The position numbers and the translations under genes are program-made. DNA of 64,000 bases from Rhodospirillaceae bacterium (lineage in GTDB: Bacteria > Pseudomonadota > Alphaproteobacteria > UBA6615): NCBI GenBank assembly GCA_002713365.1, contig PASR01000014.1, forward strand, positions 187,133-251,132, in the 5' to 3' direction. Positions 27,822-29,896 of the stretch are shown in pieces (the first letter of the stretch is position 1; each line of letters starts with the position of its first letter). The notes under the pieces were generated by a model. That model was not told where the DNA came from. It did not search any database and saw only the letters and a list, made by a program, of their open reading frames with translations.

Positions 27822-28167
27822 ATATTTATAGGTATAAGGTAATAAATTTAACTATAAAAAAAATAGATATTTTCGTATTTATTATATTTTATAGGCATAA
27901 TTTTTAATAAAATCATTGCGGTAAACAATAAAAAGGGCCTAGAACTAAGTAATTAATATTAATTTTTTGATAAATTGCTTACTTAGTATTTGCATGTTTA
28001 AATTTTTATGGGTTAGTGGTTGAGTAGATTTATGACTAACTCAGATGAACTTAGATAAGGAATTATAGAGATTGCGTCATTTATTTGCGGGGTATGAAGT
28101 GAATAGATTTTCGAAAATTTTTTTCTATTCCATATTAATAAGTAGGTTTTTTTATTTTACGAAGAAG
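27822..28167. other. intergenic region between ilvC and the leuA leader
   Basis: This AT-rich stretch holds a 9-bp inverted repeat (listed separately) and a T-rich tract near 28131-28156. I see no reliable promoter. The short frame at about 28031 (nine codons from ATG) has no ribosome site and is not annotated. Confidence 0.55.
27944..27987 (+). terminator. candidate ilvC terminator hairpin
   Basis: ACTAAGTAA and TTACTTAGT are complementary over nine bases around a 26-base AT-rich loop. There is no strong U-run after the stem, so a processing hairpin or operator is possible. Confidence 0.35.
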
Positions 28168-28209
28168 ATGTTCAGCGGCAGCTTTAGTCAACGACTTAGG
28201 TGCCCCTAA
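28168..28209 (+). CDS. candidate leuA leader peptide (13 codons)
   Basis: The frame ATG to TAA encodes MFSGSFSQRLRCP. A GAAGAAG purine stretch lies directly before the ATG. The last sense codon is Pro with Cys before it, a slow termination context that arrest peptides such as TnaC also use. Its codons 5 to 13 and the stop supply the left strand of three helices in the following nested hairpin, so ribosome position on this frame would decide which helices form. It lacks a leucine-codon run (only one CTT), so a classical leucine attenuator is not indicated. Evidence is structural only. Confidence 0.45.
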   Translation: MFSGSFSQRLRCP

Positions 28210-28273
28210 ACATCATTGTAACCCATAGTATTGGGTTATCATTTTTAGGGGGAGTCGTTACGAGCGCTAAAGT
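28181..28273 (+). promoter_or_regulatory. nested hairpin in leuA 5' leader
   Basis: Four coaxial helices are visible, outermost first: CTTTAG (28182-28187) with CTAAAG (28267-28272); AACGACT (28190-28196) with AGTCGTT (28253-28259); CCCCTAAA (28203-28210) with TTTAGGGG (28244-28251); AACCCA (28220-28225) with TGGGTT (28232-28237). The 3' side ends 28 bases before the leuA ATG, and no U-run follows, so control of translation start seems likelier than termination. I could not match it to a known RNA family. Confidence 0.6.
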
Positions 28274-28300
28274 TAACGAACCTAAATTGGAACTGGACCA

Positions 28301-29896
28301 ATGACTGCCAAAGATATTAAGTCAGTAAATTCTGCGCCTCAATTAGAAGGTAATAATAAGAACTACGTACGTATTTTTGATACCACCTTACGTGATGGTG
28401 AGCAATCTCCTGGCTGCTCTATGAATTTAGAGGAAAAAGTGAGAGTTGCTTTAATGCTTGAAGAGATGGGTGTCGATATAATCGAGGCGGGTTTTCCTAT
28501 CGCATCAAATGGTGATTTTGATTCTGTAAGAGAAGTAGCTAATGCTGTTAAAGAAAGTAGCGTTGCTGGTTTGGCTCGTGCTTCAGTAAATGACATAGAT
28601 AGGGCTTGGGAAGCGTTAAAGGGAGCAGCAAGACCTCGTATACACACTTTCTTATCTACTAGCCCTTTGCACATGAGGGTGAAACTTCAGATGGATCCAG
28701 ATGAAGTTCATCAGGCTATAATTGATAGTGTAACTCATGCGCGTAATCTATGCCCTGATGTAGAGTGGTCTCCTGAGGACGGCTCTCGTACGGAACATGA
28801 TTTTTTATGCCGTGTTGTAGAAAGTGCTATAAGAGCTGGAGCAACTACCATTAATATTCCAGATACTGTTGGTTACGCCGTACCTGATGAATTTGCAGAT
28901 TTGATTTCTATGCTATTCAATAGAGTTCCTAATATAGATAAAGCTATAATATCTGTACACTGCCATAATGATTTAGGACTTGCGGTAGCCAATTCCTTAG
29001 CTGCTGTAAATATGGGGGCCAGACAGATTGAATGTACCATTAATGGAATAGGGGAAAGAGCTGGAAACTGCGCACTAGAAGAAGTGGTTATGGCTTTAAG
29101 AACACGACCTGATTCTATGCCATATGCTACCGGAATAGATACCACTGTTATAACTCGTGCCAGCCATTTAGTTTCAACCATTACAGGGTTTTCTGTTCAA
29201 CCTAATAAAGCAATTGTTGGGGCAAATGCCTTCGCCCATGAAGCAGGAATACACCAAGATGGAGTGCTTAAAGACGCACAGACCTATGAAATTATGACTC
29301 CTGAATCTGTCGGTTTAACCCATTCTAATCTCGTAATGGGAAAACACTCAGGTAGCCATGCTTTTCATGAAAAGTTGAAAGAATTAGGGTATGGGGACTT
29401 GGGGCAAAACGCTGTAGCAAATGCTTTTCAACGCTTTAAAGAGTTAGCAGATAAAAAGAAGGATGTTTTTGACGAGGATATCGTGGCCTTAGTTGATGAT
29501 ACAATACAACATGATAGTGATCGTATAAAATTTATATCATTGCAGGTTGTAGCCGGATCAAAGGGACCACAAACTGCCGAATTAGAGCTTGAGATTGATG
29601 GAAATATTATAGCTACTAAAGCAGATGGAAATGGACCAGTTGATGCAAGTTTTAAGGCTATTAAGGAGCTTTGTCCCCATATAGCTACACTACAATTGTA
29701 TCAAGTCCAAGCCGTAACTGAGGGAGCGGATGCTCAAGCCGATGTTACGGTAAGATTAGAAGAAAATGGAAAAACAGTTAACGGACAAGGCGCTGACGCT
29801 GATACTTTGGTTGCGTCGGTGCGTGCTTATTTGCACGCTCTTAACAAATTAAATATCAAAAGAGAAAAGACTGCACCAGAAGCACTTACTGCATAG
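28301..29896 (+). CDS. leuA: 2-isopropylmalate synthase
   Basis: The 531-residue enzyme condenses acetyl-CoA with 2-oxoisovalerate, the first step to leucine. The HMGL-like TIM barrel begins at RIFDTTLRDGEQSPGCSM; the metal ligands include HCHNDLGLAVANS. A GANAFAHEAGIHQDG segment and a C-terminal LeuA dimer regulatory domain (from about residue 390) follow, so leucine feedback inhibition is expected. The length is of the long regulated type. It follows the ilv genes, completing the route to leucine precursors, but has its own structured leader. Confidence 0.97.
   Translation: MTAKDIKSVNSAPQLEGNNKNYVRIFDTTLRDGEQSPGCSMNLEEKVRVALMLEEMGVDIIEAGFPIASNGDFDSVREVANAVKESSVAGLARASVNDIDRAWEALKGAARPRIHTFLSTSPLHMRVKLQMDPDEVHQAIIDSVTHARNLCPDVEWSPEDGSRTEHDFLCRVVESAIRAGATTINIPDTVGYAVPDEFADLISMLFNRVPNIDKAIISVHCHNDLGLAVANSLAAVNMGARQIECTINGIGERAGNCALEEVVMALRTRPDSMPYATGIDTTVITRASHLVSTITGFSVQPNKAIVGANAFAHEAGIHQDGVLKDAQTYEIMTPESVGLTHSNLVMGKHSGSHAFHEKLKELGYGDLGQNAVANAFQRFKELADKKKDVFDEDIVALVDDTIQHDSDRIKFISLQVVAGSKGPQTAELELEIDGNIIATKADGNGPVDASFKAIKELCPHIATLQLYQVQAVTEGADAQADVTVRLEENGKTVNGQGADADTLVASVRAYLHALNKLNIKREKTAPEALTA

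Follow-up and report, generated by a model that had tools for sequence, protein, structure and literature searches.

The window, by which we mean the whole 64-kb stretch of DNA that was analyzed, carries leuA downstream of genes for the large and small subunits of acetolactate synthase and for IlvC (assigned by sequence only). Ahead of leuA lie a short open reading frame and a set of nested helices, here called P1, P2, and P3, whose coordinates are collected in Table 1.

Table 1. Features of leuA and its leader in the window
Feature	Coordinates	Strand	Basis or remark
AAGGA, Shine-Dalgarno-like sequence of the long leader frame	28057..28061	+	Sequence; relatives have GAAGGA or GGGGAG at a similar distance
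Probable full leader frame LRHLFAGYEVNRFSKIFFYSILISRFFYFTKKMFSGSFSQRLRCP, TTG start, 45 codons plus TAA	28072..28209	+	Start inferred; length as in relatives
13-codon ATG sub-frame MFSGSFSQRLRCP-stop	28168..28209	+	Sequence; about 90 bases before leuA
Control-codon core CAA CGA CTT A, 5′ strand of P1	28189..28198	+	Family consensus CTN CGA/CTN CTT A
P2 hairpin, 5′ arm CCCCUAAACAU, holding the Pro codon and stop	28203..28213	+	Covariation in alignment A1
P3, inner stem inside the P2 loop	28218..28239	+	Weak U-run after it in the window haplotype only
P2 hairpin, 3′ arm AUUUUUAGGGG	28241..28251	+	Covariation; T28243 opposes C28211 as a mismatch (the other haplotype has G)
CGCUAAAGUU, where relatives have the 3′ strand of P1, CACCUAAGUC	28265..28274	+	Comparison with L002 and L006
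P1 3′ strand in the predicted window fold (ACCUAA..UUG..ACUGGA), reaching the leuA Shine-Dalgarno region	28280..28297	+	Minimum-energy fold, predicted only
leuA, 2-isopropylmalate synthase (TIGR00973 type)	28301..29896	+	ATG at 28301

A sequence-only reading of this DNA had pointed to a 13-codon frame and, before leuA, to a nested hairpin whose 5′ side the frame overlaps. Both the frame and the hairpin are real, as judged from the sequence, from the covariance model described below, and from the fold of positions 28150-28330, which has an energy of -48.5 kcal/mol (z -2.98) that none of 200 shuffled sequences equaled. The ATG at 28168 is immediately preceded by a Shine-Dalgarno-like GAAGAAG, at a poor spacing. 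Frames of exactly 45 codons that begin with GTG and close with the same end motif are present in several genera (genomes L002, L006, L008, L010, and L032), with Shine-Dalgarno sequences spaced similarly to that of the long frame in the window. Given these relatives from other genera, what was read as a 13-codon frame is probably the last part of a longer one of 45 codons that starts at TTG 28072. The leader also lacks a strong terminator, as had been remarked. The outer hairpin is indeed without a U-run, but this does not hold for the inner stem, which is followed by CATTTTTAGG and was scored as terminator-like (one found versus 0.2 expected); its U5 run is weak, and the other haplotype has CATGTTTAGG instead.

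Relatives share an upstream motif, CTNCGACTTAnnnGCCCCTGA...TCAGGGGA, which precedes leuA in register with an open frame. A covariance search, which had been suggested as a check, bore out the existence of a family: a model built from 33 sequences (alignment A1, window included) with one helix, P2, matched 130 of 385 alphaproteobacterial genomes, or about one-third of the sample, mostly once per genome. The same model, of which the window row is itself one of the 33 sequences (the rest being mostly relatives), recovered the window site in a genome-wide search at E 2.4e-10, and hence far beyond chance. A gene for LeuA follows 134 of the 135 matches that were examined, in two cases at a distance of about 400 bases, and the 135th match is inside an unrelated coding region. 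In a phylum-wide sample all matches but one weak one fell within the same class, the Alphaproteobacteria. A few copies precede a LeuA of the non-orthologous TIGR00970 type rather than the TIGR00973 type, and since the element is found before two LeuA families it evidently tracks the step in the leucine pathway and not a single gene lineage. It was absent upstream of leuA in both sampled congeners of the window organism (L004 and L005). At the corresponding site, L004 carries another short frame that is rich in Leu, MLLALFNLAFVF-stop, which in L005 is without an ATG. In the HIMB59-like genomes L069, L071, and L072, leuA comes almost directly after ilvC, with no leader.

What distinguishes the frame in relatives is its content of leucine. 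It is Leu-rich and ends in L-(R/L)-L-x-x-P-stop, so that the earlier remark that there is no leucine-codon run is correct for the window copy but not for the family. With the invariant CTT/CTA as codon 0, Leu makes up 25% of codons -3 to -12 in the frame, as compared to 4% and 10% in the other two frames (131 loci), and none of the 131 loci has a stop codon in this part of the frame. Codon 0 specifies Leu in all of them, and codon -2 does so in 116 of 131. At codon -2 the amino acid is constant while the third base is free, all four CTN synonyms being in use (CTT 57, CTG 31, CTA 11, and CTC 9, or 108 of 122). The family, therefore, has what is expected of a leader attenuator, namely, a Leu-enriched frame of the translated type before a leucine gene. 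Because leucine alone is conserved at the level of the peptide, charged leucyl-tRNA is the likely signal, and not a metabolite that is sensed directly, the possibility raised earlier.

The leader RNA of the family contains two helices overlapping the control codons, neither of which could coexist with a ribosome stalled there: P1, whose 5′ strand is the Leu-codon core itself, and P2, whose 5′ arm follows. P2 (CCCCUGA/UCAGGGG) is a covarying hairpin with a 5′ arm that coincides with the Pro codon and stop. In alignment A1 pairing reaches 93.9%, and there are 17 double-change cells where shuffles give 5.0; slid controls do far worse. P1 joins the core to a partner located just upstream of or on the ribosome-binding site of leuA. 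In A2, a small alignment restricted to close relatives, it is 80% paired with few double changes, and we therefore turned to wider tests, in which cores were paired with their own or with swapped spacers (the spacer being the sequence between P2 and leuA), the third base was followed, and k-mers were counted. All three support P1, although the relatedness of the sequences is only partly removed in the own-versus-swapped and shuffle tests. Thus, the core pairs better with its own spacer than with those of other loci, with a z of -11 exactly on CTN-CGA-CTT-A versus only about -1 to -3 when the core is slid further upstream along the leader; own-spacer pairing is also significant in the Shine-Dalgarno window. 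Of 26 spacers that contain GTCG, 19 continue with a base complementary to the third position of the CTN codon, where 8.0 would be expected. Finally, the spacer 5-mers that are most in excess, when counted without reference to the core, include TCGAA, AAGTC, TAAGT, CCTAA, CACCT, AGTCG, and CGAAG, all seven of which fall within CACCTAAGTCGAAG, to which CTTCGACTTAGGTG is the reverse complement. At least five P1 pairs are present in the ensemble folds of 112 of 122 loci, their partners falling between -38 and -8 relative to the leuA AUG, a stretch that includes the Shine-Dalgarno sequence.

From the frame with its Leu codons, the two helices, and the linkage to leuA, all of which emerge from comparison among relatives, we infer a leucine leader-peptide attenuator of leuA that is conserved in the Alphaproteobacteria and has a translational output, a reading to which we assign a probability of about two-thirds. 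When leucyl-tRNA is plentiful, the ribosome would finish the frame and leave, allowing P1 and P2 to form; the sequence at the leuA ribosome-binding site, or directly ahead of it, would then be paired and translation of leuA reduced. When leucyl-tRNA is short, the ribosome would stall at the Leu codons, P1 could not form, and leuA would be translated. The earlier proposal of a leader-peptide switch, with the hairpin opened by a ribosome that occupies the frame, thus fares well as a reading. Modeling favors translational control: with a ribosome placed on the Leu codons, opening positions -35..-15 relative to leuA costs 3.3 kcal/mol less (0.3 for a control placement) and opening positions -14..+2 costs 2.1 kcal/mol less (0.8 for the control). 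These opening energies were taken as the read-out in place of the unpaired probability of the Shine-Dalgarno sequence, the mean of which changes little more with the modeled ribosome than in the control. A ribosome modeled at the stop codon relieves pairing as well; this and the small change in unpaired probability count against the reading.

The main rival to translational control is transcriptional control by the same leader: formation of P1 and P2 would promote pausing or Rho-dependent termination within the spacer, and a stalled ribosome would prevent it. It would suit the window, where the hairpin is preceded by a predicted frame of the translated type and is without an intrinsic terminator, and where one haplotype has the weakly terminator-like inner stem. 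In the relatives L212 and L157 a U-run directly follows P2 (TTTTTTTT and TTTCTTTTT, respectively), and P2 may in these cases be an intrinsic terminator. About 130 bases before leuA in L065 is an apparent classical leucine attenuator, consisting of MNSLLTLLRLTLIPASGG-stop followed by a GC-rich hairpin and its U-run, which suggests that terminator and terminator-less designs have been exchanged. These three genomes indicate that a transcriptional output is evolutionarily close. All told, we consider it unlikely. A U-run follows P2 in only about three of 129 loci and is missing from about 126, which argues against a classical terminator attenuator, in which an intrinsic terminator precedes the structural gene; and the concentration of P1 partners in the Shine-Dalgarno region and just ahead of it points to the initiation of translation. 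Less probable again is that the RNA is read by a trans-acting factor, whether a protein or another RNA, and not by a ribosome on the Leu codons. CUUA (conserved at 100/100/93/100%) and the almost invariant CCCC/GGGG arms are held more constant than Leu coding or pairing alone would demand, and a protein was favored by the authors who described the actinobacterial LEU element (PMC1262725). Against such a factor stand the strong in-frame enrichment of Leu, the lack of stop codons, and the retention of Leu through synonyms at codon -2. Two further positions are explained neither by the Leu codons nor by P2: the A after the control CTT (CTT+3), which is invariant (100%), and the G before CCCC (CTT+7), which is 86% conserved.

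The sequence-only reading had favored an arrest of the nascent peptide at Arg-Cys-Pro-stop in the manner of TnaC, perhaps with a metabolite sensed directly, and this we now regard as highly improbable. Its attraction is that Pro occupies +3 in 124 of 129 loci, with a stop at +4 in 120. But an alignment of the upstream regions, which had been called for in search of the peptide and of compensatory changes, brought out the Leu motif, the Pro-stop, and covariation in P2 and not a conserved Cys, which is found in just 38 of 129. The conserved arrest residues of a TnaC-type leader are wanting before the Pro-stop: R, T, S, and I make up most of the residues at +1, residue +2 is R, C, S, or G, and the upstream peptide is unconserved apart from leucine. 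Pro is exchanged for Leu or Ser in five loci, and the stop is displaced in nine. The Pro-stop itself is explained by P2, the CCC-UGA of whose 5′ arm encodes it, and in several relatives in which Pro has become Leu (CTC) the helix is kept by a G-U pair. As judged by these comparisons, then, a Cys-Pro-stop arrest peptide is not what selection maintains.

As to the copy in the window itself, it is a divergent and partly eroded member of the family, and its response to leucine may be weak or absent. Its core has CAA (Gln) in place of the usual Leu codon at -2, leaving one Leu codon among the last three. P1 has an energy of -9.8 kcal/mol, as compared to -16.5 to -21.8 in the relatives that were checked, and the modeled switch is nearly nil, the opening energies changing by no more than 0.4 kcal/mol with a ribosome at the -2 site. 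CGCUAAAGUU still pairs with GACUUAGGUG at nine of ten positions, several of them G-U. The entire 64-kb window recurs in the assembly at C9:140-64140 with 99.88% identity (78 differences), and this overlap between the end of contig C12 and the start of C9 seems to represent either a pair of strain haplotypes or an assembly join left unresolved. A second genomic copy of leuA was considered as a duplication and rejected, the whole window being repeated at that identity. Three of the 78 differences (28218, 28238, and 28243) lie in a 26-nt span of the hairpin in the leuA leader, and one of them breaks or restores a pair of P2, the same T completing the U5 run after the inner stem. That the element is eroding or vestigial here and exerts no real leucine control is a possibility that we place only somewhat below even, and it is compatible with the attenuator reading for the family. 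The Gln codon, the weak P1, the P2 mismatch in one of two haplotypes, and the lack of the element in both sampled congeners speak for it; the intact CGACTTAGGTGCCCCTAA, the preservation of most of P2, the strength of the genome-wide match, and the shifted P1 partner predicted near the Shine-Dalgarno sequence speak against.

How does the element compare with known leaders? Among 4227 Rfam 15 models, searched with E up to 1 against the window region and eight relatives, no relevant match was found. In the classical leu attenuator of enterobacteria (Rfam Leu_leader), the Leu codons are in a short leader peptide and the RNA adopts mutually exclusive structures. Like it, the alphaproteobacterial element has Leu codons that overlap exclusive structures and, presumably, leucyl-tRNA as its signal; unlike it, most members have no intrinsic terminator and the Leu codons are themselves a strand of the switch helix. 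TnaC of the tna operon is alike in that a Pro codon adjoins the stop of the leader frame, and it differs in the ways set out above and in that the control codons here are Leu. A leader peptide for alphaproteobacterial ilvB has been reported (Vitreschak et al. 2004, as cited in PMC1273637), and in Caulobacter crescentus an ilv leader attenuator combines Ile/Val codons with a rho-independent terminator at the ilv genes (PMC4117421). These resemble the leuA element in being leader-peptide controls over genes for branched-chain amino acids within one class of bacteria, but the C. crescentus leader serves ilv genes instead of leuA and has the terminator that the leuA element is without. The closest parallel comes from Actinobacteria, whose LEU element (Seliverstov et al. 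2005, PMC1262725) is a leuA leader with no terminator and with Leu codons that pair to the Shine-Dalgarno sequence of leuA; a pseudoknot is predicted, and the mutation data cited there do not fit classical attenuation (PMC1262725). Here too the leader is terminator-less and the Leu codons form the base-stem strand whose partner, at -38 to -8, takes in the Shine-Dalgarno region. The inner part differs, being in our model a plain CCCCUGA/UCAGGGG hairpin that contains the stop codon (P2/P3). The likeness in logic is evident, and common descent is only a possibility. We found no description of the alphaproteobacterial leuA element in the open papers that were searched, a set to which Vitreschak et al. 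(2004) did not belong, and absence from that literature is not proof of novelty. It is a speculative idea, and a rather doubtful one, that the element is an uncatalogued, class-wide, terminator-independent leucine regulator in which the control codons are the switch strand and CUUA and CCCC/GGGGA are additionally recognized by the ribosome or a factor, possibly a counterpart of the LEU element shared by two LeuA families.

Because the Leu codons double as a strand of the switch helix, the choice among synonymous codons is constrained by RNA pairing. If our reading is correct, a single leader-peptide switch, neither represented in Rfam nor a classical attenuator, sets leucine synthesis in a large share of the Alphaproteobacteria. 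The window organism would then have one worn copy of this switch, in a genus from which the element seems to be vanishing. Finally, the likeness to the actinobacterial LEU element would offer a testable route to a mechanism of leuA leaders that has long been unclear.
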